Below are positions 14,621 through 50,521 of a stretch of 64,000 bases of DNA, in pieces. The stretch is taken from the NCBI GenBank assembly GCA_030062745.1, contig CP099841.1:16367213-16431212 (forward strand). Reading direction: 5' to 3'. A program made the position numbers and the translations under genes. The notes beneath the pieces were generated by a model, which was given only the letters and a program-made list of their open reading frames with translations, was not told the DNA's origin and did no database searches. Within the stretch, counting starts at the first letter, position 1, and each line of letters begins with the position of its first letter. Source of the DNA: Capitulum mitella (taxonomy: Eukaryota > Arthropoda > Thecostraca > Pollicipedomorpha > Pollicipedidae).

Positions 14621-14709
14621 GGAGACGTGCAGATACGTACAGATTACAGACGATTAATGATCTACGGATTCTTCTGACAATGAAACATTACCCCTCCCTC
14701 ACCGTTCAG

Positions 14710-15904: not shown

Positions 15905-16087
15905 AATCATGCGTGACCGTGAGGCTGAGATGATCTCGCATAGGTCAGACAATCGGCGTGTGCTGTGCAGTGCATGTGGTATATGGTATATGTGTGCTTG
16001 ATTTTAACCTGTAGATACGGTCGTGATTCTGAAAGTGCTTAAGTAGTTATGACGCGCGTTGTACTTCAAAATTTGAAACTTGCCTTT

Positions 16088-24946: not shown

Positions 24947-26148
24947 TTAACCCTATTCCCGGAGGGCTAGACGGTATGGTCGATTCCCGGCAGGGGGGCG
25001 GGTTCGGCCCCCATCTCGAAAACCACACGTCCGATTTCATCGCAACAAACGGCAATCGATTTGCCGTGACGTGAACTACACTTTTATAAAAAGAAATTTT
25101 CAAAATCTCGAAATTCTTGGATACAGGGGGAAAATGTCAAAATGGGGGTACTTTTAGACTTCTTATAACTCCGTTGTTTATAGACCGATTTCAGTGAAAC
25201 TGGCATGAATCGAGAGATTATGGATAGGGCTTTTACTATGGATACACAAATCTGGAATTTTGATAAAATTCATGGGCGTTCAAAGGGTTTCAAAAATAGG
25301 AGGATTAGTTTTCTAATGACTGAATGAGCAAAAGAGGCAAAAACAGTTTTTTGGCTTCTGCTAGTCATGTTACTCTAAAGAAGTACAAATCGCGTTACAA
25401 TGTTTGTATAATGTTAGCATAGGCGGTGCCAGGGACATGAAAAAGGGGGAACTGTCATGGTCACACGTTCTTCATATCAACTTGTGACCTTTCACCTTAA
25501 ATGACCTCCAGTGACCTTAGGGTCACTTGGAATGATGTCATGTGCATTCAGTATTATCTGCCAACGTTTTTTATCATTTGAATTCACTCTATTAAAAAAA
25601 AAAATCATTTTATGACTATTGCGATATAATGTACGCCCACTGACATTTTAGGTCATAGCTCCGTGACCCGACCTGATACCAAGCGAAAACGTGGTACACA
25701 AGTAGAGGGCACCCTTCTGCGTCATATATTTTCTGGGTTTGGCATTTGAAAAAACGACGCCGAAATTATCGCAAAAAAACAAATTTTAACTTTTGACCTT
25801 GACCTGACCTTGCATTGTGACCCCAGACAAACAAAATTACATCTGCACATTGCCCAACTATTTAGCTATACATCCATGTAAAGTTTTAAGTTCTATCTTA
25901 AAATTCTGTTTTTGGCAGGCATTTTCCTTTTACCCTCAACATGGCCAAAAATGGCCTGAGGTGCCTCCCAAAAACGCTGCCTGGCTCCGCTCCTGAGCAA
26001 AGTAGAATTGTGAAATTTTGTCACAGCGCGTAGGAAGAATAACTAGGGAAAGTCACCAAGTTTCGCGCAGCAGCATTAAAAAGCCTGGAATAAGCAAGCA
26101 AAAAACCCCAGGGGGGCGGATTCAGCCCCCTGCCGGGAATAGGGTTAA
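24947..26148 (+). mobile_element. Family B element, copy 1 (TTAA-type MITE, intact ends)
   Basis: TTAACCCTATTCCCGG at the left and its exact complement CCGGGAATAGGGTTAA at the right make perfect 16-base termini with TTAA on both sides. Each end is followed by a GGGGGC...GCCCCC hairpin. The interior has TGACCTCCAGTGACCTTAGG, TAGGTCATAGCTCCGTGACC and GGCCTGAGGTGCCTCCC. No long ORF. The best preserved B copy, useful as the family reference. Confidence 0.88.
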
Positions 26149-27870
26149 GGGAGCCATTGTCTACTGCTGGTATGCAAACCAGTCTTCCACTTCCAGCCTT
26201 CCAGTCTTCAAACATTATGAACCATACAAGATCGACCAAAAGGTGGAAAATTCAAAACCGTACTTCATGGTTTTGGCCTGAGATGACATTAACTAAAGTG
26301 AGGATGACAGTGCAATGGTCAGTGACACCATCAAGGACACCCATGATTAACATTTAGGATTGAGAATCGAGAAATACTTGAGATCTGTATTATCCGATGA
26401 GGACCGCCACCATAACGTTATTTTCGAACGTGCCCTCGAGAAAGAGGTCATAGGTCTGTGACATGGATTGATAATGACTTCAAATTTTGAAGAATATAGA
26501 ACATTTAGAAATAGAACAGGTAGCAGAACAAAAGAAATAGAACACTTAAACACTCGGCGACGCAAAGTTTCAGAATAACCAAAGCATTCGTTTGGGACAC
26601 CTTACAAAAAAAAACGTCCAGTGGGTTGCACTTCACCCCTCCCCCGTAATGGCAACAGTTAATTAGTACCGTAGAAGTTGAGGACAAAAATAAGCAATTG
26701 GACAAGACGGCACCGTTCTAGAACAAACTGAGAGGCATACTTCCGGGAACAGTTAAACCGTGATGTTGAAATAGCCTCACATTACTAGTTATCTGAAAAG
26801 CTTAACACGGTCGCAAGAGAACTAAAACAATGTCTGGTGGCGTAAGAATATTCCATTCTGAGTGCCACCGAGATAACAACTGGTTTTTACTTTTTACCAG
26901 TCTCTTGATGGTTCTTTCGGACACTCAACATGGCTGAAACATAGCATAGCAAGCATAGCAAGCACACAAAGCATTGTATGCGGGATTTGTGTGTACCGCT
27001 AAACAGTGACACCTCTTGACATCTCTTGCGCAGATCTCTGTCGCCACAGCAGCTTAAATGCTTAGAATCGAGGGGAACTTGGAAAAGGCACAAAACAGCT
27101 GTAAACGGATATCCAGTTGACATCCATCAGGTTTCAACCAACAAATTAACATGTCTGCATTTTGTAAATACTGTACACAAGGTAAAATGTTACCGTTGTT
27201 TTCAACGACAGATGTGATGATCTGTTCCGCCCCTTTCCGTGTCGCGCCATTCCTCTTGCATTTGGACAATGTTGTGTTTTAAAAATTGGCGCTGGTTTGC
27301 AAATAACAGACCTGGTCTGTAACTTTCACTGAGGTGGATAGCACAAAAGACGAAGACATGTCAAGCAAAGCCGAAATGTATTGTTTTTTTTTTTTACTAC
27401 TCAAAACGACCCTTCTATTCAAGCAAGCGTCCTCCGCAAAGGCTTTCATCAGCTGGCGTCTGTGTAATATACTTTCACAGAATCACTTGGTACGATTGGT
27501 ACTGTTAACTTTGAAGCTCATATTATATCTGTAATATCCGCAACATAATATTAAATCATCATTAGATCATCAGATTACCGACATCATAGGGCCAGAGATA
27601 TCGCTGTGCATTATTGCCACATTATTCGTACTGCCCTTAGGTTCTACTTCACGAATACGTGAACCCGAAGTCTACCAAACGAGCACTAACACGAAACAAA
27701 AACCGGCAACTTTCGGACCAGCAAATGCAGGTGCAGAATTTGGGCTGGAGCCGAGGGTGTATTCGTTTTCTGCAGCACTCTCCAGATCTGGCTCTGAAAG
27801 GGCAACAGAGGAAAAAATCAGCTGATGTAGGCAGACCATGCATAACGTGGTGTAAGGACACCTAATGCCT
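26149..27870. other. Unrecognised non-coding stretch
   Basis: No gene or repeat recognised. Confidence 0.4.
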
Positions 27871-29066
27871 GTAATCCGCTCCCGACGGGGCGGGGCAGTT
27901 GACCGCCCCCCCCCCCGAGGTTTTTCCAAGATTGTGAGCAAACGAATGAACGCAGAGCCACGGAACTTTGTGTACCTTTGCTTGATCACTTTTGCACCTT
28001 CTACCAAACTTTTGGCCTCAGGTCAAGTCGTGTGTCTCACCTAGGTCAGGTTAAGTGGACCTATGTCCAAAAACGTTCAGCGCCCTATAACTTTTTTGCA
28101 AACATGATATCACGATAAAAATTTTAGGGATTAAAGATCTTCATGACTGCAACAAATCTGCTATCTGTCGGAGCTTCCAAAGTCATTGAGCTAAGGTCAA
28201 CCCCATTTTCAAGACATGTCGTCTTTTTTGGGGAATTTGACGAGATTATTTTATAGCATTTTGAGTATGAGGTGATGCAGACATCCATTTACCGCCGATG
28301 GACAAAATATCAGTGACTTTCAGCCATTGACCTGAGGTAAGGTAACGAATAACTTATGAGCTGGAATACGTCCCCGTCAAAATCGGCGATGAATTACTCA
28401 GAACGGGTAGAAAATGGCAAAACTGGTTAGCACAGTTCTTGGTAATACCAGCAGTTCAAAAAGTCTGTAAATTTGGAAAAAGACTGCGAATAAAGCTCCA
28501 CCGATTGTGTTGACTGATAACTACCGAATTTCTCCAAAATTTAAGCAAAAGAATCAAAAGATCCACTAGGAATACGAAATGTTACATGGAAAGACTTACG
28601 TCGCGAAAATAAAGAAGAGCCTAAATTAGTGTCCGTTCATTACATGCCGCGTCTGGCTACGGCGCCCACCAGCAGTTGGAGCGAAAATCCCCGTGTCTTT
28701 ATCTCAACGTTTCGGCGTCTATGTAACACAAATCAGAGACATTAGGCGTGTATCGGCTTCTGGTGATTTTTACAGGCTCATTGGTGCCTTTACCTAGACT
28801 TTATTAATCATGGCCTGTGAAATCCAGACCGCTTCTTTCTTTCACGCAGTCATCTGTGAGGAAACATTGATATAGCGCAAATGGTTTACATATTTACCAA
28901 AGCTACAAATGAGAAGTTTCGAGCTCTTCTTGCCACGGGCTTTCTTACGGTGCGCTTATGTTTATCGTGCGGCTAACCATTCGTGAATTAGAAGGGGGGG
29001 GGGGGGCGGTGAACCGTCTCCCAGTCGAGCGTGATTGGCACCGACTGCCGGTCGGACGCGGGTTAA
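27871..29066 (+). mobile_element. Family A element, copy 2
   Basis: The left end is decayed (GTAATCCGCTCCCGACGGG) and the right end is intact (GGTCGGACGCGGGTTAA). The left subterminal hairpin is GGGGCAGTTGACCGCCCC. The interior follows copy 1: GAGGTTTTTCCAAGATTG, ACCTAGGTCAGG, TGGACCTATGTCCAAAAACG. Confidence 0.85.
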
Positions 29067-30206
29067 CTTTTCCCATCACGATAAACACCCTCCAATCCAG
29101 ACAGGACAAACAGCCTATCTCATGAATGAAAGGGATAAACCACCGATGAAAGATGCAAACGATGCAAGATCTGATTCTCCCACTCCCTGTGATGGATGGC
29201 GCGGTTACCGTTATCTAGACTGATGGCCGTCTGTCAAAGTAAAGCTAAAAAATTCCGGCGAGATTGTGCTACGCTAATCGCATTTGTTATTCAGTTCTGT
29301 TCAGATATTGTCATCTGGCGTGTTCTTTGTCCGGCTGCAACCGCCTACTATGATGAGTTAATTGGTAATCGGTGATGATATGCATAACAATATGCACGCT
29401 GATGATATGATGAGAATCGGTGTAAAATGCGATACAGGTGTAACTGACCACTGGATCATGTTTGCCCTGAATAGTAAACTTAAATTATGGCGTTTGGAAT
29501 GAGGAATTAGGCGAAAACCTCAGTAACTCAGAGATGTGTTGAACGTATCCAAAATACGTGATTTTGCTCTTCAAACAACTCACTGGGGGTGGACCCACCT
29601 GCACTTTTGGCGTCGCAGGTATAGCACCAAAATAGTTAAATCCGAGAAGTATTATGGGTTTAACATGAAGCCCATGCCTTTCTATGGCAGTGCACAGAAA
29701 GAATGAAACTAAAATCGCTCCCTGCGACACCAGTATTTTGGTCGATGCCTCGCTCCTTTTCTGTAACGCATTACAAATAAAGTGCCCGCTTTTTTAAACT
29801 CCGGTATTCGTGAGGCTTTCCATGAAAATGAAACAAAACTGTAAACCTAGTGAAGGTTGCTGGGTGGTTCAAATTCTGATGTATGCAAAGGATTCCACAA
29901 ACCTGTACGATTCGCGCAATACACGTACGAGTGCCATCTACGCGGTACGTCCTAAGACTACACCACTTCAGTACACAGTTTGTCCGCCGAATGTACAGTA
30001 GGTGACTGGACCGTGTCGAATCGCAAAGCCAGCTTATATACAGTTCATTCTGTCGTCGAGAAAAGAAGTTGGTCTTATTTACATCTGCTCCAAAAGTAGA
30101 ATCCACGTGATAATTCATGGTGAGTGAACAAATGAGAGCAAGTATTCCGCGACTGTTGATTGGGCGGCCGGGCTAAGTACATAAACTGGTGTTTGCCGGG
30201 TTGTAC
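29067..30206. other. Unrecognised non-coding stretch
   Basis: No gene or repeat recognised. Short overlapping frames on both strands look random. Confidence 0.4.
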
Positions 30207-30590: not shown

Positions 30591-31090
30591 AGTGAGAGTA
30601 TGCGTTGGCAAAAGCAAAGTCTTCCGATTTTCTGGTCTGCTTCATTGGCAGCGACCATGCAAATACTCACGGAAAGACGGGGCAATCAGAGGCCTTTCCC
30701 CGAGGACAAGAAAACGGATGATCGCTGACTAATAACTTAACAACTATTTTCAGGGGTGAAGATGGTGGTCAGTAGACACATTTCATTGCATTTGAACTGG
30801 TTCGTCTGTGGCTTATGGCCCACAGAGTAGGTCTGGAAACCTTCCAGGAGGGGTATGGGTCGGAGTGGATACACTCAGGAATCGGGGCCTCTTTTCTATT
30901 TCTTTGCCATTTCCTATTTTACTATCCTTTAGATTTTCTACCAATCAGATTTTATCACACACCGGAGATGCCTCCTCCCCTTTTGGAATTGCGCCTGGCG
31001 GCTCGTTGTTTATTGTTTGGCTACTAATCTGAGCTGTTAACATGTGACATGAGTGTTTGGCAACTTAGTGCCTGAGCTCAGGTCACATCT
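30591..31090. other. Unrecognised non-coding stretch
   Basis: Nothing recognised between two family B sequences. Confidence 0.4.
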
Positions 31091-32245
31091 GAACCTTATT
31101 CCCGGAGGGTTAGACTTTATGGCCGATTCCGGCAGGGGGGGCAGATTCGTCCCCCCTGAGATCTCCCGAACTGCACATCCGATTTCATTGCAACGGCGAT
31201 CGACTTGCCATGACGTAAACTACATATTTGTAAAAATAAGTTTTCAAAATTTTGAAAGGCGTGCACACTTGTTCGATTTGTTATAACTGTTGTTTATGGA
31301 CCGATTTTGATGAAATTGGCATAAATCGAGAGATTATGGACGGGACTTTAACCATTGGTGCCTACATTTGAAACCTCGAGACAATTCATAGGTGTTCACA
31401 GGGTTTTGAAAAATAGGAGGATTAATTTTTTTAAAAATTGAAGTAAAAAAAGTTCAAAAACTTTCTTAGTTGCCGCTAGTTATGTTATGCTGAATAACTA
31501 AAAATCATTGTACGATGTTTGTATAATGTTAGCATGGGCGGTGCCAGGGGCATGAGAAAAGGGAACTGTCATGACCACATGCTCTTCAGATCAACTTACG
31601 ACCCTTGACCTTAAGATATCTCCATTGACCTTAGAGTCACTTCGAATAACCTTGTGCGCGTTTCATATCATTCGAAAACGTTTCTAATCATTTGATATCA
31701 CTCTATTTCTAAAATCCCATTTTACGGCTGTTGTGATATCACGTCCGCGCACTGACATCTTAGGTCATAGCTCCGTAACTCGAAGTGATATCAAGCTGAA
31801 ACTTGGTACACAGGTAAAGGGCACCCTTCTACGTCGTATGTTATCTGGCTTTGGCATTTCAAAGAAATAGTGCCAACATAATTTCTATGAAACAAAAACA
31901 CTGATTTTTTACCTTGACCTGACCTTGTGAAGTGACCTCAGATGAACAAAGTTGTATTCGTGTATTGCGCAACTGTTATCCTGTACATCTACATAAAGGT
32001 TCACGTTATATCTTAAAAAAGCTATTTTTGGCAGACATTTTCATTTTACTCTTAACAGGGCCAAAAAATGGCCTGAGGCGCCTCCCAAAAATGCTGTCTG
32101 GCTCCGCCCGTGAGCAAAATATAATTACGAAATTTTGTTGCAGTAGGTAAAAAGAATAGTTATAAAAAGTTACCAAGATTTGTGGAGATGCGTCGAAAAC
32201 CCTGGAATTGGCAAACAAAAAACCCGAGATGGACGGATTCAGTCA
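31091..32245 (+). mobile_element. Family B element, copy 2
   Basis: The left end is CCTTATTCCCGGAGGG. The interior is colinear with B copy 1 (GACCGATTTTGATGAAATTGG, TAGGTCATAGCTCCGTAAC, GGCCTGAGGCGCCTCCC). The right end has decayed, with neither TTAA nor CCGGGAATAGGG visible. Confidence 0.82.
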
Positions 32246-34211: not shown

Positions 34212-34364
34212 CATCCAGGGAAATGACACCATCAACATCTCCCAACGAGTTTTTCGCCACACATTTGTAGCTCTGGAAATCTTCTTTGGTGATGTTCTTT
34301 ATGATCAGAAGCATGGACACCTTGTACAGCGACGTTGCCACCGCTTTGATCTCGTACTTGTCAC
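34212..34364 (-). CDS. Exon E: second half of Ig domain 3, DIP-like gene
   Basis: With the previous exon's G it reads GDKYEIKAVATSLYKV, then MLLIIKNITKEDF, then SYKCVAKNSLGDVDG and VISLD. GDKYE and YKCVAKNSLG are the most conserved words of DIP Ig3. The acceptor is CTTTTCAG. The likely donor is GTACGA after GAT G (phase 1), at the position where other family members leave Ig3. No GPI-anchor or membrane exon could be recognised between here and the start of the window. Confidence 0.9.
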
Positions 34365-37300
34365 CTGAAAAGCATTGCGTGCTCTGAACATCACAGTGCA
34401 CCAACCGAATGGAGAAGGTCGAAAGACGCTAGTGTGTCGAGCAGACGGAAAACGGCACAAAAGAATCGTATGAACACAGTATGACGGACGTAATCATATT
34501 TGATGCCCCATACGGGATGGATTTTCTACCAAATTATCAGTTCAGAAAATATTTATAAGCCGACCACAAATCCGATGCCACCGTGGTCTGATCCGATTAT
34601 CGAGGACGCATGAGCTAAAAGGATAAAGGAGGCGCGCTGGGCCTGGACCAAGGTGGCTCCGGGGATCCCGTCCCACGGGTCACACACAGCACCCCAACAC
34701 TACCAGTCGCACTCCATGTGAAGGCTGACAGCACCTGTAGAGAGAATCTGATGTGTATGGCAAATGTGGTGGTCAACTAGTGCTACATATCAGCGCCTGA
34801 CGTGATTCTCCGGTGCTTCGATGATTTATACATGTACATGTATATGTAAATATGCTCTGCAAAAACTGTGAACAATAATAATCGTTAGTGGCGGGTGAAA
34901 CCACCAGACAAACGGCCGGACAGACTGAATATTAACACTTGGCGTGATCAAATGATTGACCCTCGCCAGGCCGGCCTCCCAGCCCACCTTCGCGGGCCGA
35001 AGATCATGACTTGGCCCCATGGTGAACTTTGGGGCCAGGATCGTCTCCGGATCTCATAAGCGGGATTCGGTGTCGGCGACCTTGAAGGCGCTAGGCTGGC
35101 GCGCCGTATGTGACCTAGTTGCGAGGCGCGACAGCATTGGTGTTTTCGGAGCCCTGAACGACTCGCGTGCTCCGGTGGCGGTCCGGTCCCTGTTCATTCC
35201 ACGTACCGCTGTGTCCTGGCGTGCCACCCGGGCGTCGGCGGCCGGCGCCTTAGAGCCGCCGACTTAACGTCCGTCTGTGGCCCGCAGGGCTTTTTCGTAT
35301 CGCGCGGCCTCGTCCTGGAACCGCCTGCTGCCGACACCGCCTCTCGAACCCGTGGAGAGCTTGAACGGAAACTTGACGAACTTTCTCCTATAACTTAACG
35401 TGTCTAACTGCTCAGTTTCATCTGTATGACTATTGCGCATGTGTTGTACTGTAATGACTAGAATCAAACAGCAGTCCATGCGGTGGAAAGTTTCCCAAAT
35501 AAACTGAACTGAACTGAACTGAACATGAGACTCACAAAGACAACGTAAAAATACCGTAGGAAAGCCCTTAGCGAAGAAAAGACGAAAGCACCTGTATTTG
35601 TTTTCAAATAACATCAGTATTAAGGTCAACAGAGGTTATCTTAGGTCAAATTGACCTGTTGCCATATATGCCACAAAACTTCGATAATCAGGGCATCTAC
35701 GAGGTTCAAAAGGGTTTAACAATAAAAAAGAGGTAACATATTACGTTATATGTGGGCAGAAAAAAAGGCACTTGAGGCCAAATGTGACCATTTCAAGAAA
35801 GCGGAAAATGAAGAAAAAAGACGTTTTTTTGCAACGGCAGGAGTATCGTTTTTCTGAATGTATCAGCATTGGAATAAATCGTTAATATGTCTGACACGCA
35901 TATTATGTCTGCAATTATCATATTAAAGTCAAACAAGATCAACCTAGGCCAAGGTACTGACCCGTATGTGTAAGGCGTTTCTGGTGTCTGTTGCATTATC
36001 TGCCACATTATGACTGATCAGGTTCAGTACAACATAGCATTCCATAATATCCGATCATGTAATATCCCTTCTGTATCCTGAAACCCGCTCTCTAAAGCAT
36101 TTTTCAAGTCACACAGATACCGGGCGGCAGGCACGGCCGCAATGGAAAAAGGTGGCGCCTGACGGGAAGTTATTTTCGCGACGTAAGGAAATAATAACAT
36201 GATTGCAACAACGCAAACTGTACAGATCGAATGCATGTATCTGGTTATTGTTTGTGGTCACACGAAGTGTGTCCGCATTGCAAACAAGCGTGATATTTCG
36301 AAAGTCAAACCAGGTCAGCCTGGATGAAATGGCATTGAGTCACCCTTAGAAAATAAGCTCTTGTCATATATTAAAGCCTCCGAAACGCAGACGACTAGCA
36401 ACACACATTCTAAGACCGTAAATCGAAGAACTGTACTCGGTAGCGGGTCCGGAAATTCTGTTTGAAACATGCCCTGACCCAAGGCCACGGGTCAAGGGGT
36501 GTAATTGCGTGTGCAAATTATATGACATACATTAGGGTGTAAATCCGACCTTCGAAGCAGCTGAACCAATCCCACGATCGCAATATGACACAAAAATGGC
36601 CTCAAGTTTAGCTGAACCGAGGTCACGAACCTGCATTTTTTTTTGGAAAAATTCGAAATGGCAGCATTGCTCCATTTGTCATGCTGTATCAGTGTTTCAA
36701 GTTTCATGGTAATCAGTACATTTGACAAAATGTTATGCCACTTTCATTTCTTTCAGCATGGTCCTACTTGACATGCTCTATGACTTGAGGTGACCGTGAA
36801 TTTAAAAACTGGCCCAAGATGTAAAAATGATGTGTGAAAGGTATCCCAACTTTCGTATCTCCGTACCTTTTTCATTTTTGGCTATTCGCAGAAAACCGGA
36901 GTGACGATTCTTATGAGTTCTACGGCCCGGTGAAGGTTAATATCGATACCTGTCTCAGTTGGGTCTGGTGCTGGATACTGGTATTTGCCATGATCATTTG
37001 GTGCTGAATAGCGGGACCTGCCGTCATTATTTATTAATGATATCAGTGACTGCGACGACCGTTTGGTGCTAAACCTGACGTGAGCATCTGTTGACAGTAT
37101 TTATAATTTTTCGCGATTATTTGAAGTCAGAAAGCGGTACAAGTTCCGACTTATAACAGTATCTGCTGTGGTCATGGGCTGAATATCAATGTCTGTTGTG
37201 ATTATACGATTAGTAAGATCGGTAACCGCAATGATCATTTGGTGGTTGGTATATGAATGGCTGTCTTGATCATCTGGTGCTGAATATTAGCACATTTCTT

Positions 37301-40300
37301 TCCTCATTTGGTGCTAGTTATCGGCATCTGTCACAATCGTTTGATACGGAAGATCGGTACCTGCCGTGATCATTTGCTGCTGGCCGTCAGTCCAGTAGTT
37401 GATGGGACGTGGGAACGCTTCAGTTTGGCAATGCAGTCTTTTGGATTTCTGGCCCACATAAGCTGACTCCAGCTGAGAGGAGACGAGCATCATAGGAGCG
37501 ACTGCGGACACAGAGCGGAATCAGTCAGTATGTCGCCACAGCGTGTTAAAGTCTGTCCCTTTGCCGTCAATCAGAATTTTTCAACGTTTCTACGTACCAA
37601 GCCCCGCCACTGTAGACATAGGACAGAGGTCAGTTAGTCCGCCGCTCAGTCTGATGCCGCTGTAGACACGCCGTGGGCGCATGTCAGTACTCCGCTTGGT
37701 TTGCGACCACTCACTGATAACTCCGGAGTCGGGAAAGCTGCTTGGGCCTGTGAAGTGCTGCATGACCTTCGAGAACAAGACGGCAAAAAAAGAAAGCAAG
37801 AAAACGAGAACAGAAAGGCGGCATTTGTTGGTGCTGCGCAGCCCATCCGAGGCAACGTTTATTCGTTTTGAACCACACGCAGAAAAATACACTGCATGCT
37901 CAGAATTCTCTAAGCGGTTTGACGTACGTAAACTCGGGGCGCCTTTGACGAATGAATGACATTTCATAGCATGAAAACAAGCTGGTTCAAATGAGGATGA
38001 CTTAGCACTGTTTTTTTTTTTTTAGGGGGAGCAGTGAACATCAAATGTATTTAGTATGTTCAAATAGCAAATGGTCTTTACACTTACAATGCACCTTGAT
38101 GTAGATTCGCTTGCTGACTGCCGGCAGTATGCCATTTCTGGCTATACACAGGTAGGCGCCCATGTGCAGCCGGCTGACTCGGGTGATGTTGAGAACGTCA
38201 CCTTCAATCACGGTGACCGCGGACATATCTGCGGCGCGGGAGATTGGTAACGGGGCGCCCGAGCTTGCCTGGCTGAGTGACTCTCTGTCGATATCATTAA
38301 CCCGGTACTGACTGCGCATTTCTTTGCAACCCGGTACTGACTGCACATTTCTTTGCAACCCGGTACTGACTGCAGTATTTCGCCACTTTTCATTGGTTGG
38401 CGGAGGGGCGTTTTACGCCCCACCTGTCTACCTCGAGAACCAATGGCCCGATTTGGATGATTTAAACGTATCAATCGGTAGCGTCGGACAATCGATAGCG
38501 CCGGGCCGTGCAATCTTGAGACATATACATTTCTTAGTTTAGGGTCACTGATGACGTCACAGGTCAGGCCAGACACCTAAAAGTAGCATTTTTCTCCCGA
38601 GTCGCCTGATTACCATGGAAAGCATACCGAAGACTGACGTTTGGATCTTAAGTTATCTCAAGAAGTGTGGTCTGTTATTCTGAGAAATACCTGACTCACG
38701 GTCATGAAAGGTCAAAGTCACATGCTAGGTGAAATGTGGCGTTCGTACTCAAGTGTTAAGAGATACATATTTCTTGGTTCATTTAGAATGGAAACTCTAA
38801 AAAGGCACTTACAGGGAGCTTTTTACGCACGGAAAGGCCTGAAATGACTCCGATTGCCATGCTCATGCAATACAGCGACGATTTGCACTTTGAAACTCAA
38901 AGTGACGTGAGCACGCTAGTGGCCTCGATCGGAAACCCCTGAGTGGTTCAACACGTCTGTTTGGCTCATGTTGCTCACTTTGTTACCGAAGATCAACCTG
39001 CAAACAAATGTTGCATTGCTGCGGGAACCTGATGCGTCTTGGAGAAATCCTGGATCCGTCTCTACTTTAAGTATCATTATTTTCACGCCCATTTTATTTC
39101 CACGCCAGAAGTCCACTGACAACCTGTCAATTGGACCGTCAACTGCGTGTTTGCCGACCTGAGCTTGACACTCGCCCCCGGACGATGGGTGGAGGATTCG
39201 GTGCGGCGGGTGTGGCCTCCGCCACACCAGTTTCCAAAATTGGTTTGACATGCCACATCAATTTTTAACAGTGACTGATTCCAAAACTGGGTGTGGGATG
39301 TAACTATCCACATCCCAAATTGCATTTTTTTGCGAAATTATGAGGTACAACAGCAAAAAGAATCACACAGCGGGAACATGCAGATTATGGAACAATGCCA
39401 TCATAGGGCACTCTGGTCCAGTGGGTGTGCAGTGTGTACCGTTAGGCTTGCTGCGCTCTTCAATGCTGGTTTACACAGTGCTGTGATACTGCGGTATAAA
39501 CCTATAACTGGCGGAAAAAAAAAGTTTTTGCTAAGTCAGTGTCATCAAAATAGAAAAAAATTAAGAGACTGAAATCCGGAGGGAAAATAATGGTGAGGGA
39601 GCGGGAGGGGAGGGAGAACGGAAAACTGAGTATATGGGACTGACCGTGTTGACCTTTGCCACACCAACTTTCAACACGCTTCTCCACCCATGCCCACGGC
39701 CCGAGTTAATGAGTTTCTCAAAGATAAAATCGCCTAACACAGTGTGCCGTTTTAAAGCCCGCCAGCGCCGTATCCGCCCACTGCCCAATGACTGTCGACT
39801 GTGGCAAGGTTTTTTGTCCGAGCCGAGCGTTACGAGCAGGGCTGGACGGTGGCTGAGCCGCCCAGTCGGCTCGGTTTTTGACGGCGGGCTGCCGTCAGTT
39901 TGTGGCAGGCCCTCGCCGAGACGCAGTTTTCCGCCACTCGCGGAATGCCAAAGTGGGAGCGTCGGAATGGCATTTTACGCGCAGGTAATGAAGCGAGGAC
40001 CGGCTTTAATGGCTTGCTAGTCAGAGTGATTGTCAAAACTCTCGGGGTCCCCGAAGAGAAAAATCTTGGTTTCAGAGAAAAACAAAAGCGCATTTGGTAG
40101 CTGACAGCATTAAGGACAGGTATTCGGCCGCGCGTGCATCGGCCTATGAGGAGATGAAACTGGAAGGCGCTGGACGTCAGTGAAACTTTTATCGCGCAGA
40201 AGTTTCAAATGAGGCGTACGAAGGAAACACATTGGCAAACATACGAATACCATGGGTCATGGGTACATCCATGACCTATAGTCGACGACCCATGACCCAT

Positions 40301-43300
40301 AATACGACTGGGATCCGGTGTGAATGTTCTTTTTTTATTTAATCACGAGCTACTTGAAGAGAGCAGTGTGCTATTTCTATCGCTGAAGTATCGAGCCGGC
40401 ATTTAAAATCCACGAGCTCGACTAATTTAAGTCCAGAAATGCGTCACAATGAACATCCGTAAAAACAGAAGTTCATCTGTTACTGCTAATCTCTTTAAAT
40501 TCGCTACTCCCGATAATCTTCTGGTCGTGTTCATTTTAGAAGAACTTGCAACTGATCTGTCAGTCAGGTGCTCCCTTTTCCTTGGCATTTGCCTGCATCT
40601 GCCAGGACGTACGCACAACATCGGCGCGTTTTGCATAGATATGCAAGAATATTCTATTATAGATACACAAGAGATTTTATATTCACGACATTTTTAGGCT
40701 CTGGTTCAAAGAGCCATTTGGTACCTAAAATTTTGCCTGCATGTTCCATTGGACTGAAGATTTAGCCAGAGACTGCACTCGGCAGGTGACTGTTTTTTTT
40801 GGGGGGGGGGGCAAAATCTGCGTTAGGACGTGGAGGACTTGACAGAAAGGTATATTGTAGGCGAGGACGGTAAAACACATTATTGTTTTTGTTCATATGG
40901 AGCACAAAAAGCGGGCTACATGTCAGGGTGATTTTCATTTCGAAACGTCAACAGCATTTTTACAGTGCGAAGGATGACAAAAAAAACTTGCCAGCCTGAC
41001 CTGGAGCCAGTGCACGAAAGGCAACCGTGTAAACATTACATTCACTTTAGTTCTTTTTTTGGTGTACGGAGGTTTGCAAACACCTAACCCTGATGTGTTT
41101 TGTTCTACATCCACTGATCTAAGTTTTGCAAACCTGTGGAACTGGAGAAGAATAGGTGCTCCCAGTGATTTTTAACGATTCCCATGTTCTGAAGGCGGTG
41201 GAATGACCTCACCGCCGGGCTGACCACGATGGATGGCAGTGCCGTCTTCCCGGCGCCACTGGACCCGCGGCGGCGGGTACCCGGAGGCCCGACACGCCAA
41301 ACTGATGTCCTCCGACTCGCGCACGATCATGTCTGTACTGCTGCCGTCGTCGTGGATCTTCGGCGGCACTGGAAGCCAGGCCAAGCCATCACCAGCGGTC
41401 AAATGCCCATGCATTTGACACTTGGGTCCCCATGGCGGGGAAGAAGATCACAGTTGTTCGCCCGGACCAGACGCCGACGACACTCAAGGACAACCAGCCA
41501 CATTGTGAGGGTAGAGGATAGTTCTCATGACACACAGCTGAAATTCAAGAGATTCAGATGCGGGATAACGACATTATTTGCAGCAAACTTAACCAGGCAC
41601 TCCATTCACCAGTTTGTCTGCCCTCCCATACGTGGAAAAACCTCAAAAAGTGCTGCGCAGATAAGTTGGAAAGTACAGAAGTACATCATGTATTCCAGTG
41701 TCGGCTTCATGTCTATTCAGGCTAACCGAATAATTATAGTCATATGCTCATAACTTTATTTCATTAAGATGTCGGATATCGGTTTTGATTGGCACGTGCT
41801 GACTTTCAGCGATACGCAAACCGCTGATCATATGTTTAGCATTGCCCATCACAGTTTAGCAGTTAACAACATTAGGGATTTAGAGCTGCGAGAGATAAGT
41901 CAATATACAATTTACTGCCCTGACCTACTCACACATCATCTTGTCACAAGTGGTGAACCAGAGGTAAACTCAGAGAACTGGAAACAGCGCTATGACTAAA
42001 AAAGCACAAGGTTTTGCTTCTTGTGACAACTGTGCGGACATGGTTTGTCAGCGAAACAAGCAGCATGCCGCAAATGGCCAAACAATGTAATATTTGGTCA
42101 AACGGCATTCCAGAAAACGAAAGCATGCGACAAATATGATTTTAAAAACCAAAACGCGAAAGAATAAAGGTTGCGGCGAAAAAAAACAGACCGGGCCATA
42201 GCCGTGCTATTTCAGCTGCGAGTTCCTATACATCCCTATTACATACATATACATATATATATATACATACATTCCTATACATCCCTATACGTGGACAATG
42301 GGCCGGACTGCCTACTACAGAATTCAGATAAGATTTTTGTTTCTGGGAAAGAGCCTGCTTAAGTCACGCGCAAATACTAAATGAGTGTACATATACTTTA
42401 AATTCAACTCCCACTTGCCAAGAGGGACCATGGATGTCAACTCTAGGTCTAGGTTTCAGTTTCCCTTTTATGACAGAATAGTTCGAAAAAACTGAAATTT
42501 AGTGACCAATGTTCGAACCTCTCCGTATGCTCCTCTAACCAAAAAACCAAAGATCATATTAGGGCACCTATTCATGGCATGACAAGGTACAATTGCTACT
42601 TGTAATTCCACGATCTATATTTGACGGTCTCCACCAGTACTCCGACGTCATATATGGACAGTGTTTTTTAAATAGCTTTTCCTGGAAAAAGTTCTGCGAG
42701 GATTCCGTCTTAAAAAATAAGGTAACCTGCAAGGGTTAGCTACTGCAACTGAACTGAAATGCCTTTGTCAGTGCGTTAGGTGATTGGCTGGGACTGACAG
42801 TAATCACTGATTCCACTGACGAAGGCATAACGGGGCGACCGTCCATTAACGGGAGCGTTGTTAAATATCCAATCCAATGACCAACCAACCGACCGTCCAT
42901 GTCCGTCGGCTTCCGGAGGTGGCAGGATAACACTTCTGTGACGTCACGCACGGCTGCTCAGCCCCGTCTGGCGTCCGGTGTCCGGCCCAACCAACCGGCC
43001 ACACCTCACCTGCGCACCGGCAGCCACAGCCACAGCCACAGCCACACAGACAAAAGGCCGAGTGCCTTCAGCAGTGCACTCGTACAATCTGCACCCTCTC
43101 AGGTGGAAAAACGAATAGATCGCCTTGACATAATGCTAAGAGCCGTAGGGATTGGAAATGGGGGCTGCTAACAATAAGAGTCCTTCTTGCTCTCTATATC
43201 AAGCATGGGTGTAGCAAGCAAAACCTTTTTACAGGTGCTGCCGGCGTCGTCGGGTCTACGGCCGTCGGTTAGCAGAAGACTGGGTAGCGGCTGACAGTGC

Positions 43301-45962
43301 GTCTAGAGCGAGATCGCCGACCGCAGGTATGTCTAGAGAGAGATTTGCGACCGGATGCACGTCTAGAGCGAGATCCGCGGCCGGAGGTATGTCTCCAGCG
43401 AGATCCGCGGCTGGAGGCACTTCTAGAGCGAGCTTTGCGGCCGGGGGCACGACTAGAGTGAGATCTGCGACCGGAGGTATGTCTACATCGAGATCTGCGA
43501 CCGGGGTCACGTCTAGAGCGAGATCCGCAGCCAGAGGTATGTCTAGAGAGAGATCTGCGACCGGGGCACATCTAGAGCGAGATACGCGGCCGGAGGTATG
43601 CCTAGAGCGAGACTTGCGATCGGAGCCGCCTCCAGAGCGAGATCCACGATCAGAAACGCCTCCAGCCCTTTCCCTGTGAGGGGTGGGAGAGGAGTGGATT
43701 CCGCCCTGTTCGTTCGTTCGTTCATTAGAGCTTGCAGGCGTCGTACGGCCGCCATGACGTATTAAAGAGCTCACCAGTCTAAGTGGCGACGGCTGACATG
43801 CTCGGTCAAAAAAAATATGGACAAGAACCACGCCAAAATAGAAACATAGGAACATGAAAACAATGCACCCACAAAGGACACACGAGTGACTAAAGTGGTG
43901 TCTACAGGGCAGAGAATGTTGTCCCATGTCCGACAGGAGCCGAAATGACTGCACGTTGTTATACAACGAGACTCGTCTCCCAGCAACTACTGCATCGCGG
44001 GAAGTGGTGCCCTTTGCCCGAAGTGACATAACCATTCCGCCACTAAGCCCCGACAGGTCAACACACGACGCACGATTAAAGGCTTGGCACAGCGAGGACA
44101 CAGCAGCCTCTCGTTCTCACACAAGACATAATCGTGCGATGTGCATGCGTGTCCAGTACGCAAACGGCACAGAACAACCTCCTCGCTTCTCATCTTAACC
44201 AAGCAGGTTGACCACTAGCGATGACGAGGCTTAACAGCTCATGGTTTGTTGGAAACTAGTATGTCGCAGCTGGACTGCCATTTCTTATAAAGAAATGCAG
44301 TTATCGTTGGATAAAGGTCTCTGGCCGGCAATGGCAGAGTACGTCTGCATGCAGTCAGCGTGGCTCGCTTCGCAACGGGGTCTGCGAGCTCGTTTCCCGT
44401 GATACCAACGTGCCTGGGGATCCAACACAGCGTGATTTTCCTCTCCACCCGGTCCAGAATAGTGAGGGACGTTAAAATATTCTGTGCAAGAAGATGTACA
44501 AGATAAAAAGTGAATTCGGCCCCCCCCCCCGGGTTTTTCGCTGGCCCAGTCTAAACCGTTCGAGATAAATCCGTGGAACTTGATGAATTGTCCTGCCCAT
44601 CATTTTTGCACATGTTGATAAGTTTTCAATATTCTTGACCATCAGGGGTCCTCCAGAGGGGGGTTTTAAGGAGGCATGTCTTGACGATTTCGCGAAAAGC
44701 TAGGGTACCACAACATTATATTCTATTTGACATGTGCTGATAACAGCTGATAATGATTCACACCAACGTATTTAGACGCGTGTCTAGGATGCATAGAGAT
44801 GTTTTTAGTTGGGCAGAGGATCTAGGGCAGTCTAAATGGGTATTCTGTTGGTCAGTTTACCAAATAAAATAAAATATTTGAAACGTTTGCATCTTTATTT
44901 CATGCGATTGGTGATGGTAAAAAGTGCAGGTTAATGTTTCAGGCACTCCTTTTCTCATTTTCAATGATAAAACTGTGAAGTTTTAAGGAATTCCGAATCT
45001 TGAAATTTAAAGACCTAAAGTTCGAGATGTTTTGCCTGTTTAATACTTAATTTGACTTCAGCAGTGTCAAAACCCTCATAAATGTATTTTGCCACCAAAG
45101 CACCGCAACCAGAGTGTAAAACCGAGTTTCCAAGGAGTTAGCAACGTTGCCAACACTACCCCGAATTTCGACCTTCTTATTCTGCCTAAGAGAATTTTGA
45201 AATCTTAAAGACGCCATTGTCTAGAACAAATCTCGATGTAGCGTTCACAGTCTGAGTCGAGCAAATCGGACCATAATTTTAAGAGATCTGGGGGGAGTGG
45301 AATCCCCGTCATAGATTCTGATCCAAACCAGCGTCAGGAAAGCGGCTAGAGCGAGATCTACCACCGACTGGTCGACGGCACCTCTACAGTGAGATCCGTA
45401 GCCGGTGGCACGTCTGGAGCGAGACCCGCGGCCGACGACGCGTATGGACCGACAGTTGGGACAGCAGTCGGCGAGATAAAACAGGACAAGTTGAGGCCTT
45501 CAAAAATCCCCGGAACCGACGACTGAATCCCCGCATGTTGACTATAGGATATACATACTATAGGATGGTCTGGGGTGGCTCGATAAAAGAAAGGTATGGA
45601 AATCTTTTGCCCACGCTTGCCACATTTGTCATGCAACAACAGTGAACAGTATTAGCAGTGGTGCCCAAGGCGAGCCATTATTCCTTTTGTGCAACTTCAC
45701 AACGTCATAACGGGCGGGGTGATGTGATGGCGGCTCCAGCCGAGCTGCACGCACCTACCACCTGTAGGTAGCCCGTCTGCGACATCATCGGATCAGTGTT
45801 GATCTGGCACATGTAGAAGCCGCGATCTTGCTCGGTCACCTGGCTGATATGCAGGTGCCAGTTGCTGTGGCCGCCATGAGTGAGCGTCACACGTGGGTTG
45901 CGGGTGATGAGCGTCCGGTGGATCGTTAGGATCGTCTGGGTGTCCACGCGCACCCAGGCCAC
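34212..45962 (-). CDS. DIP/lachesin-like Ig-domain cell-surface protein gene (partial, five exons)
   Basis: Seen: five exons on the minus strand (45962-45755, 41368-41213, 38228-38088, 37501-37361, 34364-34212) join into 799 coding bases without a stop. They give half of Ig1, all of Ig2 and all of Ig3. Each Ig domain keeps its hallmark residues: DRGFYMC in Ig1; a Cys and Trp pair, then HMGAYLC, in Ig2; a Cys and Trp pair, then SYKCVAKNSLG, in Ig3. Known family: this pattern belongs to arthropod DIP proteins (partners of Dpr proteins), often auto-named lachesin-like or IgLON-like. They are GPI- or membrane-anchored and act in neuronal recognition. Introns are about 4386, 2984, 586 and 2996 bases. 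All junctions between recovered exons are phase 1, so the middle exons are symmetric. Missing: signal peptide, first half of Ig1 and C-terminal anchor. Which DIP paralogue this is cannot be decided by eye. Confidence 0.9.
35010..35524 (+). mobile_element. 5'-truncated non-LTR retrotransposon (3' end) in a DIP-like intron
   Basis: The + frame from 35019 reads NFGARIVSGSHKRDSVSATL, KALGW, SIGVFGAL, VRSLFIP and TRASAAGALEPP. One in-frame stop (35265) follows, then FSYRAASSWNRLLP. The pattern of RIVSG, L-LGW, then F-R-A-SSWN-LP is the C-terminal end of an RT-encoding non-LTR ORF2. AATAAA near 35498 precedes a (CTGAA)n tail at 35504-35524. It is opposite in orientation to the host gene. Confidence 0.75.
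35640..36320 (+). mobile_element. Family E repeat, copy 1
   Basis: Colinear with 51480-51855 plus 53070-53500. Shared landmarks are CATTTCAA(G/A)...GAAAA, a GGAATAAA-C-GT-AATAT word, GTCAAACAAG(A/G)TC, then GTTTCTGGTGTCTGT and GGAAGTTATTTTCGCG. Ends and class are unknown; no coding capacity is seen. Lies in the intron between exons D and E. Confidence 0.55.
36945..37395. repeat. Degenerate ~35-bp tandem array running into exon D
   Basis: About a dozen diverged units resemble TACCTGCCGTGATCATTTGG followed by TGCTGAATAT. Clear ones start near 36975, 37012, 37047, 37159, 37222 and 37260. The last unit, near 37356, lies across the donor and last codons of exon D. On the gene strand each unit corresponds to the exon end ATGATCACGGCAGGTACC, with drift. 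Confidence 0.65.
37361..37501 (-). CDS. Exon D: first half of Ig domain 3, DIP-like gene
   Basis: Begins APMMLVSSQLESAYVGQ after the split Phe codon, then RLHCQTEAFPRPINYW, then DGQQQMITA. Cys, Trp and the P-I-NYW motif match the start of Ig3 in DIP proteins. The acceptor is TCCGCAG, and the donor GTACCG follows GCA G (phase 1). The donor and the last ~7 codons coincide with the end unit of a degenerate tandem array that continues into the intron to about 36945, so this splice site lies inside repeated sequence. Confidence 0.92.
38088..38228 (-). CDS. Exon C: second half of Ig domain 2, DIP-like gene
   Basis: Joined to the G left by the previous exon, it reads DMSAVTVIEGDVLNITRVSR, followed by LHMGAYLCIARNG and VSKRIYIKVH. 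VSRLHMGAYLCIA with VSKRI is a near-diagnostic DIP/IgLON signature for the end of Ig2. The acceptor is CGCCGCAG; the donor is a consensus GTAAGT after CAT T (phase 1). It is 141 bases long, identical to the next exon. A 29-bp tandem repeat sits 73-146 bases upstream of the acceptor. Confidence 0.93.
38301..38374. repeat. 29-bp tandem repeat, 2.6 copies, upstream of exon C
   Basis: CCCGGTACTGACTGC starts at 38301, 38330 and 38359, with ATTTCTTTGCAA between. The units are nearly identical. It lies in the intron, ending 73 bases before the exon C acceptor on the gene strand. Confidence 0.9.
38375..41212. other. Intron between exons B and C
   Basis: No further exon found. A perfect 13-base inverted repeat of ATGGGTCATGGGT lies at 40252-40264 / 40288-40300, and a poly-G run lies near 40800. 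The frames at 39634-40020 are GC-rich but unrecognised. Confidence 0.4.
41213..41368 (-). CDS. Exon B: first half of Ig domain 2, DIP-like gene
   Basis: After the phase 1 junction it reads VPPKIHDDGSSTDMIVRES, then ISLACRASGYPPP, then VQWRREDG. The Cys and Trp of the second Ig fold are both present, and VPP at the start is the usual Ig1-Ig2 linker. The acceptor is CTTCCAG after a pyrimidine-rich stretch. The donor is GTGAGG after GGC G (phase 1). The 156-base length is a multiple of three, so skipping would keep frame. The tail after WRREDG (HRGQPGG) is variable in this family, so the donor could in principle differ by a few codons. The long plus-strand frame 41229-41753 is only the antisense of this exon and flank. 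Confidence 0.88.
41369..43300. other. First part of the intron between exons A and B
   Basis: Only an AT/AC-rich microsatellite at 42241-42270 and a short CAGCCA run near 43021-43045 were recognised. Confidence 0.4.
43301..43665. repeat. 30-bp minisatellite, about 12 units, open on both strands
   Basis: The unit resembles TCTAGAGCGAGATCTGCGAC plus CGGAGGTATG, 30 bases long, and drifts between copies. Since 30 is a multiple of three, frames stay open: the minus strand reads a 10-residue PPAADLALDV-like repeat, and + reads an RSAAGGMSRA-like repeat. It lies just 3' of the retrotransposon remnant at 43700-44450 and recurs at 45345-45470. Confidence 0.85.
43700..44450 (-). mobile_element. Non-LTR retrotransposon remnant: RNase H and C-terminal domain
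   Basis: The minus strand reads ITLCWIPRHVGITGNELAD at about 44436-44380, the classic W-P-HVGI-GNE-AD motif of the RNase H domain in I/Jockey-type non-LTR elements. It is followed by RLRTGHACTSHDYVL and CPRCAKPLIVRRVLTC (zinc-knuckle-like end), then in another frame LLGDESRCI and LIRHGGRTTPASSNERTNE. At least two frameshifts separate the parts, and the RT is absent upstream. Inserted in the host-gene intron in the same orientation as the gene. Confidence 0.8.
44515..44800 (+). mobile_element. Diverged fragment related to the family A left part
   Basis: CCCCCCCGGGTTTTTCGCTGG, CGTGGAACTT, CATCATTTTTGCAC and a GTTTTC-like word follow the order of the first ~200 bases of family A, without the terminus. 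Weak similarity by eye. Confidence 0.35.
45345..45470. repeat. Second short array of the 30-bp minisatellite
   Basis: About three diverged units (AGAGCGAGATCTACC, CAGTGAGATCCGTAGCCGG, GGAGCGAGACCCGCGGCCG) match the array at 43301-43665. The minus strand reads PPATDLTVEVP. Confidence 0.7.
45662..45691 (+). repeat. 30-bp direct repeat, 3' of exon A
   Basis: Identical over 30 bases to 46062-46091, exactly 400 bases away; begins TGCCCAAGGCGAGCC. The pair brackets exon A. Confidence 0.95.
45755..45962 (-). CDS. Exon A: second half of Ig domain 1, DIP-like gene
   Basis: The exon encodes 69 residues starting VAWVRVDTQTILTIH and containing ITRNPR, NWHLHI, DRGFYMCQINTDP and GYLQVV. These are the strand C to G motifs of DIP Ig1, including the second conserved cysteine. 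The acceptor is the CCGCAG just before the GTG of VAW (phase 0); it has only a weak pyrimidine tract. The donor is GTGCGT after GTA G (phase 1), which pairs with the TG that opens the next exon to restore Val. The minus-strand frame stays open well beyond both splice sites, but the upstream residues no longer resemble an Ig domain. The partner exon with the first Ig1 cysteine was not found upstream. Confidence 0.9.
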
Positions 45963-47528: not shown

Positions 47529-47671
47529 CACATATCTCATCAGGTAGCTTGACATAACTTCATTTTTGATATCGCTATATTTGTGAGGTTTTTGATCGTC
47601 ACTGGCGAGTTGTTCTACTTCTATATTTCCATAACGGTAGAAGTGATTTGCAAGAACATTTTTAAACCCTA

Positions 47672-48752
47672 TTCCCGGAGGGCTAAACGGTATAACCCAT
47701 TCCCGGCACGGGGGATTTGGCCCCCTGAGATCTCAAACTACAGGTCAGATTTCACCGCAACAATTGCCAGTCGATTCGTCATGACGTAAATACATTTTTG
47801 TGGAAATAAGTTTTCAGAATCTTGAAAAGGGTTCATACAGGGGCGAAAAAAATTACAATGGAACTATTTTTGGCCACGCTGTTTCTGGACTGAATTTGTT
47901 GAAAGAAATATGAAAGGAGAGCTTATGGATGGGACTTTTACCATTGGTCCATACGTTAAGAATTTTGAGGTAAAATCAGAGGCGTTCATCGGGTTTCGAA
48001 AAAGGAGGGTATTTGTTTTCAGTCTGAATTACCAAGAAAAGTTACAACACCTTTTTAGCTTCTACTAGTTATATTATACTGACGAAGAAAAAAATCGTGT
48101 TCCTTTGTGTGATGGCAGCATCGGCGGCGCCACGGACATGAAAAAAGGGGGACTGCCATGGTCACATGTTTATCAGGTCTACTTAAAGCCTTTGACCTAA
48201 AATGACCCCAGAGGTTCTAAGAGTCAAATGCGATGGCCCTGAGCGCATATCATGTGGTCTAAAAACGTTTTTAATCCCCTCAGTTGACCCTATTTCAAAA
48301 ATCCCAACTTCTAGCTGTCATGATATAGGGTACGCGCACTGACATTTTCTGCCACAGCCCCGTGACCCGACTCGATATCAGCCTGAAACCTGGTATACAG
48401 AGGACACTCTTGTACGCAATACATATTCAGGGTTTTTTAGTTGAAAAAATGCGCCAAAGTTATCGGCTTAAAACGGGATTTTGACTTTTGACTTTGCCCT
48501 GGCCCTATGAACGGACCTGAGATTAACAAAACTATTTCTGTATGCGTGGTCACTTAGTGACCTCAACACCGATACCAAATTTTAAGTTCTTTCTAAAAAA
48601 AAACTTTCTGGCAGCCATGTCTTCAGCTTGAACAGGGCCAAAACTCGTATGAGGTGCTTCCAGAAATCGTTACCTGGCTCCATCCCTGAGGAAAATAAAA
48701 TAATGAAGTTCTGACACAGCAGGCTGAAAAAGTAGTTACAGAAAAATACCTA
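47672..48752 (+). mobile_element. Family B element, copy 3 (interrupted)
   Basis: Left end TTAAACCCTATTCCCGG. The interior is colinear with B copy 1 (GGCGGCGCCACGGACATG, TGACCCGACTCGATATCAG, CCTGAGGAAAATAAAATAA). Homology stops at GTTACAGAAAAATACC, where an A-type terminus CTAACCCGCCCCCGAC follows. Its missing right end appears at 50522-50612. Confidence 0.8.
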
Positions 48753-48767
48753 ACCCGCCCCCGACAC

Positions 48768-49263
48768 TTTACGTCATAGCTCCGTGACCTGACCTGATAT
48801 CAACCTGAAACTTGGTACACAAGTAGAGGACACCCTTCTACGTGATATGTATTCCGAGTGTGGCATCTGGAGAAAGGCACCAAAATTGATGTGATGAAGC
48901 CAAATTTTGGTTTTACCTTGATCGCACGTTTTGAAATGACCGCAGATTAACAAAATTATATTTGTATGCTTGTCCAACTGTTTACCTATACGTCCATACG
49001 AAGTTTTGAATTCCATCTTAAAAGCGTCAGTGTCGGTAGCCATTTATGTTTTTCGTTCAAAAGGGCCAAAAATGGCCTGAGGTGCCTCCCAAAAACGTTG
49101 CCCAAAACTCCGCCCCTGAGCAAAATAGAAATGCGACATTTTGTTGCAGTATGTAAAAAAAATGGGTAGGAAAGGTGGCCAAGTTCCGTGAAGCTGCATC
49201 TATAACCTTGGAATTGGCAAGCGAAAAACCCGAGGGGGTCGATTTTAGTCCCTTTGACCCATG
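48768..49263 (+). mobile_element. Family B element, right-half fragment
   Basis: Restarts in mid-element at TACGTCATAGCTCCGTGACC and runs colinearly through GGTACACAAGTAGAGG and GGCCTGAGGTGCCTCCC to a decayed B end (AAAAACCCGAGGGGGTCGAT). Sits between an A-type terminus stub (48753-48767) and A copy 3. Confidence 0.78.
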
Positions 49264-49273
49264 AAATCCTTCC

Positions 49274-50521
49274 TTAACCCACCCCCGACGGGGGGTCCGT
49301 TGGCCGCCCCCAATGAGGTTTTTCTAGGATTGCGTGAGAACGAACAAACACAACGCCATGTCACTTCGTGTACTTTTTTTTATCATTTTGCACCTTGTGT
49401 CAAAGTTTTGATCTCAGGTCACGTCAGGTATCTGACCTAAGTCACATCAAACGGACCTATGTCCAAAAAGTTTAGCGCCCTGTAACTTTTTCGGAAAACA
49501 AGTTATCACAATAATGCTTTCAGGGATTAGTGATCTTGATAGATGCAACAAATCTGCTGTTTGATTTTTCGGAATTTTCTTGGTTGACGTAAGGTCAAGC
49601 CCATTTTTAAGAAATATCGTCGTTTTTTCGGAAACTGGCGGAATTTTTCAGGACATTTTTTAGTGTTGAGTGAAGCAGACATCTAGGTTACCGTCAACGG
49701 GCAAAGTATCAATGACTTCCAGACATTGGTCGGAGGTTAGGTCACGAATAAGTCTTGTAAGCCAAAATGCACCACCGTCGGAATCAGCGATGAGTTACTC
49801 AGAACGGGTGGAAAACAAAAGAATTGGCTTGCACTCACGTAAGTAATACGAAGAATGCCAAAAAGTTAAAAAATGCATATTTTGAAAATAAACAGGTTGT
49901 CGCGAATAATGCTCCGCCAATTCTGTAGAATGGTAACTAATTAATTTTTCCAAAATTTCGGCACGAGAAATCATCAAAAGAGCCATTAAGATCAATAAAA
50001 TTTACATGGATAGCCTTATATCGGGAAAATAAAAGAACGCTAGAATTAGTCCCTGTTCATTTGGTACTGCGTATGGCTGCGACGCCTGCCGACAGCTGGC
50101 GTGAAAATTGCCGTGTCTTGAACTTAACGTTTTGGCTTACATATTGAACAAATCTGAGAACTTGTATTGGCATTTGCGGACCTTTACCTGTGCGTTGGTG
50201 CCTGTACCTATGCGTTATTAGCCACAACCCTTCAGATTTAGGCCGTTTCTTGGTCTCATGCAGTGCGTTATGAGAAAACATATATAGGACGTAAATTGCT
50301 TACATATTATCTGAAACCAAAAATGAGATCAGTTTTGAACTCCACTTGTCACAAGCTTTTCTACGGTGTGCTTATTTTTTATCGTGCGACCAACCACTTA
50401 TGAGTTAGAGGGGGCGGTCGACCGCTCCCTCTGACTCTGTGCTCGTCAGAGTCTGACTCTGACTCTGACGACCGCTCCCTCTGGTGTGATCGCCACCGAC
50501 CCATGGTCGAGCGCGGGTTAA
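49274..50521 (+). mobile_element. Family A element, copy 3
   Basis: Left end TTAACCCACCCCCGACGG, right end GGTCGAGCGCGGGTTAA, with TTAA at both. The interior is as in copies 1 and 2 (GAGGTTTTTCTAGGATTGCG, GGACCTATGTCCAAAAAG). The right hairpin region contains an extra short GACTCT duplication (50429-50475). Confidence 0.87.

Follow-up and report, generated by a model that had tools for sequence, protein, structure and literature searches.

Tandem genomic duplication was reportedly proposed by Rogers in 1989 as a model of intron gain, with ATP2A1 said to be named as a case. For fission-yeast genes, PMC4974935 describes 24-bp repeats that represent tandem duplications of AGGT-bearing exon segments. 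Furthermore, internal tandem repeats with units of 30 bp on average are located at exon-intron boundaries in human segmental duplications, according to PMC2812944. In this study, a stretch of 64,000 nucleotides (nt) from Capitulum mitella (GenBank assembly GCA_030062745.1, contig CP099841.1) was analyzed. This whole stretch is referred to as the window, and all positions are counted within it. It contains a degenerate tandem array that overlaps the splice donor of an exon, designated Ig3a, in a predicted immunoglobulin (Ig) gene of the DIP (Dpr-interacting protein) type on the minus strand.

The locus resembles Rogers-type duplications in having several consecutive short tandem exon copies with AGGT at an exon/intron structure. 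Unlike these, its unit includes bases of a seemingly pre-existing intron, there is no sign of a newly gained intron, and most of the old copies lack a GT in register. The human boundary repeats likewise comprise minisatellites overlapping an exon-intron boundary; according to PMC2812944, they are recent, variable, composed of about 4 units on average and in many cases supported by transcripts, whereas the present array is degenerate, comprises about 13 or more units and is known from sequence alone. Among the literature matches listed, none describes a DIP donor with a tandem array, which is no proof of absence. The array looks like an old, degenerate example of these known kinds, located in the intron of a DIP gene. 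Probably, an exon/intron junction was duplicated in tandem, spread as a minisatellite and subsequently underwent neutral decay.

A Tandem Array of 33-Base Units Downstream of Exon Ig3a

In the preliminary description of this locus, about a dozen degenerate units of about 35 bases had been noticed in the intron. The array is indeed present at nearly the same coordinates, with the corrections that its period is 33 (unit length mostly 33–35 bases) and that 13 proximal units were counted. Self-identity by lag exceeded 0.33 at lag 33 only among lags 15–109 (0.383), and the best lag between 20 and 60 across 500 Markov shuffles reached a maximum of 0.353 (mean 0.311), so that the periodicity on which the description depended was recovered. 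Taken alone, the ungapped lag statistic is weak, as seven of 424 windows across the 64 kb reach the same value, and therefore a trained wraparound model was used to evaluate significance. The tandem-repeat caller that had been proposed as a check did not confirm the array, since Tandem Repeats Finder (TRF) gave no call at a score of 50.

Trained on the array region, the 33-column wraparound model reached a score of 224.6 (191.8 without the exon copy), compared to a maximum of 143.5 and a mean of 89.9 after the same training on 60 shuffles. Among 88 sampled same-strand windows, one surpassed the array, namely that containing a 30-bp minisatellite at about 43.3–43.6 kb; the second best (113.1) overlaps the array itself. 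Wraparound alignment with the 33-column profile delineated 13 intronic units from 37346 to approximately 36936 and, in addition, a unit at the exon end and donor (37379–37347). Six rows above 37379 and two below 36970 were discarded as run-on resulting from a gap cost that was too low. A stricter alignment splits the proximal stretch into 12 units and a 5-base piece. The units at 37148 and 37126 are heavily degraded, and 11 other units are in register without gaps, showing 14 to 26 matches of 33 to the exon copy. Mean pairwise identity between units amounts to 0.525, i.e., they differ at about half of their sites. In having copies arranged head to tail in one register beyond chance, the array corresponds to a minisatellite.

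The End of Exon Ig3a and Its Donor Are in Register with the Array

A first profile was trained on positions 36900–37346, a region that leaves out the exon and its donor as well as the 14 intron bases that follow. Using this profile, the exon/donor copy obtained 32.4 bits, the top value of all positions on both strands of the window. Its 19 exonic columns were matched equally well by none of 127,464 positions outside the array, and its 14 intronic columns by one of 127,474. The starting consensus of this profile contained the exon copy, and rank one depended on that seed. Retraining was carried out from eight separate starts, each seeded with one intron unit. The exon copy then ranked second in six runs, third in one and eighth in one, the latter two runs having converged poorly (127.8 and 124.2 vs. 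170.4–191.3). In all eight runs it surpassed the best site outside the intron (14.9–28.8 vs. 13.2–15.5 bits).

Moreover, gapped alignment of the exon end to the unit, with the query cut five bases beyond the donor and the exon copy contained in the consensus, revealed 24 identities in 27 columns from 37382 to 37356. With an intron-only consensus, the gapped match extends as far as 37350 on the intron side, and a weak extension reaches 37403 within the exon. The overlap between the array and the Ig3a donor is real. Consequently, the view that the final unit consists of the exon's own 3' end plus donor holds, as does the array against the objection that the exon end might match it no better than random intron sequence, given that the exon copy exceeded all sites outside the intron from each of the eight intron-only seeds.

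Additional units, termed d1, d2 and d3 and missing from the preliminary description, were detected on the gene strand farther down the same intron. In the first profile, the next-best site outside the array after d1 and d2 achieved only 14.7 bits. In the six well-converged runs with intron-only seeds, d1 scored 19.3–20.1 and d2 20.9–21.8 bits; in the poorly converged runs, the scores of d1 and d2 dropped to 13.1 and 18.6, and 6.8 and 9.0. The pair of d2 and d3 reached 39.5 in the wraparound alignment, more than any other place apart from the proximal array. Between the proximal and distal units lie about 2 kb with abundant interspersed repeats. Of the two repeat-derived stretches located there (Table 1), the longer one matches 51502–51856, 53067–53442 and 54526–54686 at 61–66% identity, and the shorter one shows a weak match to 62484–62746 (57%, E 0.002). 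We read this as an array that was formerly longer and continuous and was split by insertions; alternatively, the distal units may have moved separately.

Table 1. Positions of the array, its outlying units and the exons of the host gene within the window.
Feature	Position	Strand	Remarks
Exon/donor copy	37347..37379	-	19 bases of exon and 14 of intron; donor cleavage at 37361/37360
Proximal array	36936..37346	-	some 13 units of period 33 within the intron; approximate consensus CACCAAATGATCACGACAGATACYGATATTMAG
Distal unit d1	34925..34957	-	22.4 bits in the first profile
Distal units d2 and d3	34751..34815	-	head to tail; d2 22.1 bits; d3 at 34782
Repeat-derived stretches between proximal and distal units	35637-36513, 36646-36897	.	
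First in-frame stop (TAG) if the Ig3a donor is unused	37314..37316	-	read-through gives TDLPYQTIVTDADN, then stop
Donor-like site of unit 14	36945..36952	-	last exon-like base 36950, CAG/GTATCG, 4.96 vs. 5.07 for the true donor
Exon Ig1	about 45962-45755	-	AG/G sets the first base at 45962
Exon Ig2a	41368-41213	-	in joined frame
Exon Ig2b	38228-38088	-	in joined frame
Exon Ig3a (exon D of the preliminary description)	37361..37501	-	flanks CCGCAG and GTACCGAT; phase-1 end; in frame to Ig2b and Ig3b
Exon Ig3b, next in gene	34212..34364	-	TTTCAG/GTGACAAG...CCTGGATG/GTACGACT; in-frame join

The Host Gene Is Predicted to Encode a DIP-Type Protein

Five exons of the host gene are recognizable. Joining Ig2a through Ig3b results in a single open frame with phase-1 joins throughout; Ig1 was left out of this check. 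The peptide deduced from Ig3a and Ig3b matched Drosophila DIP-alpha, DIP-eta and DIP-theta with E values of 1.1e-24, 2.4e-21 and 1.4e-18, respectively, these being its three best PDB matches (6efy, 6eg0 and 6efz; query residues 2–95 or 2–96). This likeness concerns Ig3 of the host gene only and not the array. Furthermore, Pfam assigned Ig_3 (40.4 bits, cut-off 30) and I-set (39.9 bits, cut-off 23.7) to the host peptide. Based on both the similarity of Ig3 and the in-frame exon joins, the host is predicted to be a DIP-type gene. At the junction QQQMITAG/DKY, the peptide aligns without gaps to DIP-alpha and DIP-eta and is one residue longer than DIP-theta, in agreement with the earlier statement that QQQMITAG keeps normal DIP length. 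As judged by these comparisons, Ig3a is the predicted normal half of a DIP Ig3 with its frame intact.

Origin of the Array

Based on these results, it is proposed that tandem duplication in steps of about 33 bases affected a junction between exon and intron that already existed in a DIP-type Ig gene. Each copy would have comprised roughly the last 19–22 exon bases (perhaps more) together with the donor and the beginning of the intron. The duplicates would then have multiplied as an intronic minisatellite, probably out of one early derived copy, and decayed by point changes, insertions and deletions, and by the insertion of interspersed elements that now separate the three distal units. The exon-proximal donor is most likely still the one that is spliced. 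The direction from exon to intron is likely, and the duplication would have occurred by slippage or unequal exchange. Neutrality is what we infer, and the array most likely represents a neutral relic.

The idea of the exon end as ancestor, already put forward in the preliminary description, is supported, although not proved, by the sequence comparisons. Since the exon end encodes a typical DIP sequence of typical length, there is no need to invoke an unrelated satellite as its source. When the 17 units are ranked by centrality, the exon copy comes first in the 19 exonic columns, with a mean identity of 0.665; in the 14 intronic columns it ranks fifth of 17 and in the 12 columns after the GT ninth of 16. 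Such centrality in exonic and not in intronic columns is expected if selection froze the coding part only. Moreover, GTACC from the intron is part of the unit, and Ig3b begins with a sequence unlike the unit (6.0 vs. a null mean of 6.25; 64% of 2,757 null pieces were as good), and hence the intron seems to predate the duplication. The divergence between units and the repeat-derived DNA between the parts of the array are signs of age.

Several observations weigh against descent from the exon end. Support from column bootstraps is modest, the exon copy being placed first in just 136 of 300 replicates for the exonic and 45 of 300 for the intronic columns. At column 3, the base of the exon copy is shared by none of 15 units, at +9 by one of 15 and at +13 by one of 16. 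Because the intron units thus share states absent from the exon copy, the founder was not exactly the present-day exon end; either the intron units go back to one derived copy that they share, or the exon changed later. Furthermore, at least one intron unit outranks the exon copy in the intron-only models, as members of the training set can, and for the worst units the register was assigned manually and is possibly wrong.

The reverse direction, in which an intronic minisatellite grew into the exon and replaced its end, with selection retaining a tolerable Ig strand and donor, is an unlikely alternative. It would account for the continuity of exon copy and array in one register and for the states shared by array units without counterpart in the exon. 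It fits poorly with an exon end at DIP length that aligns without gaps to DIP-alpha and has MI in common with it. In addition, the weak gapped extension up the exon runs into the INYW codons common to the three DIPs; if real, this would also favor the exon as source, but it may be due to chance.

Donor-Like Sites and Read-Through

A functional array was also considered as a rival to neutral decay. The preliminary description had suggested that its repeated donor-like sites act as decoy or alternative 5' splice sites, adding short in-frame or frame-shifting tails within Ig3. In a corresponding functional scenario, weak copies would compete with a weak donor, add a stop and lower output in some cells, which appears improbable. 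Donor scores were calculated with weights not trained on this species. The Ig3a donor CAG/GTACCG (5.07) scored below the other four donors assumed to be in use, with 7.78 (Ig1), 8.73 (Ig2a), 6.58 (Ig2b) and 5.78 (Ig3b); a possible alternative Ig1 donor scored 4.64. The site of unit 14 is the sole array site about as strong, and its near equality with a weak donor is compatible with competition. The same applies to the stop at 37316–37314, since it is encountered before any of the five proximal GTs in register (37294, 37141, 37075, 37018 and 36950), each of which would therefore carry a premature stop, some 20 to 360 bases ahead of the junction.

Against such a role, a GT is present in register in only six of the 16 non-exon units, and donor-like sites occur at or below the density of the strand. 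The region 37400–36900 contains 20 GTs, i.e., 4.0 per 100 nt vs. 6.0 for the strand. Two sites with a score of at least 4 were found there (the true donor and 36950) vs. 3.0 expected by density, and none with a score of at least 6 vs. 1.1 expected. The G at +1 occurs in 0.44 of the units, less than the mean of 0.52 for intronic columns; the T at +2, by contrast, occurs in 0.75. Moreover, the predicted RNA fold of the array was no better than that of shuffles (z 0.24). A decoy-donor array is not supported, as neither GT density nor register indicates donor enrichment, and scoring of the individual units yielded one strong unit (36950) and no enrichment over the strand. Short in-frame tails do not result from the proximal in-register GTs either, because the frame ends at the TAG ahead of them. 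As for frame-shifting tails, two GTs (37348 and 37335) located upstream of the stop would shift the frame by 13 and 26 added bases and score -4.26 and 1.22, respectively. Selection against decoy GTs was considered as well and rejected, the intronic array containing 4.24 GT per 100 nt, a value as low as in 11.9% of windows. Regarding micro-exons inside the units, pyrimidine fractions at the best YAG sites within the array reach 0.59 vs. 0.53–0.71 for the five real acceptors, so that this measure is compatible with them.

Possible Roles at the RNA Level and in Intron Gain

That the units form a splicing-enhancer array, binding an RNA-binding protein which aids the weak donor, is very unlikely. 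The array is repeated and adjoins a weak donor, and YCAY is somewhat raised (2.59 per 100 nt vs. a window mean of 1.79), but this density is reached by 17.6% of windows. Motifs of the Fox, PTB and Pumilio types were absent from the array, those of the MBNL type corresponded to background, and the Quaking-type ACTAA occurred once, as in 29.6% of windows or more, so that none of these five motif types besides YCAY was clearly enriched in the array. A search of positions 36500–38600 against Rfam gave no match at the gathering score.

Still less credit is given to a Rogers-type intron gain, in which tandem duplication of an exon segment containing AGGT would have created the intron itself, with the array representing the founding copies. 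The joined exons GCAG/GTGACAAG do provide the junction AGGT which that model requires. As the start of Ig3b is unlike the unit, exon sequence from both sides of the AGGT, which that model would expect, is not present in the unit. In addition, Ig2 and Ig3 are each split into two exons in vertebrate IgLON genes, which would imply an old intron. Equally far-fetched is a bank of decoy donors maintained beside the weak donor for a tunable poison extension ending at 37316–37314, whose repeat number and decay would set the level of a neuronal recognition protein. Tandem duplication of the exon/intron junction with subsequent neutral decay is retained as the preferred interpretation.

Neighboring Repeats in the Window

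The minisatellite in the Ig1-Ig2a intron (43300–43644) consists of 11.5 units of 30 bp (TRF score 324). Long open frames run across it on the minus strand (43256–44116, 286 amino acids) and on the plus strand (43215–43679, 154 amino acids), and a 93-bp piece at 45342–45434 resembles it at 73%. A further tandem repeat of 29 bp in 2.8 units (38299–38381) is located upstream of the Ig2b acceptor and adjoins an interspersed element at 38357–38930. This element belongs to a family whose members are 61–63% alike (5496–6621, 9029–10215 and 38357–38930). Moreover, an interspersed element of about 1.2 kb is present in five copies in both orientations (14706–15907, 27857–29067, 49272–50425, 51856–53069 and 61514–62789), which are 69–80% alike. 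Another interspersed family, 67–75% alike, was observed at 24921–26125, 31065–32242 and 47662–49252.

Conclusions

A new splicing mechanism is not demonstrated by the array. The locus provides a readable case of a minisatellite for which the end of an exon and its donor apparently served as the seed; the exon copy is still recognizable while the intron copies decay. This finding suggests that such arrays can persist next to a donor with the reading frame intact. In combination with sequences of related species, the locus could allow dating of how long such relics survive and clarify whether decoy donors are purged from them.

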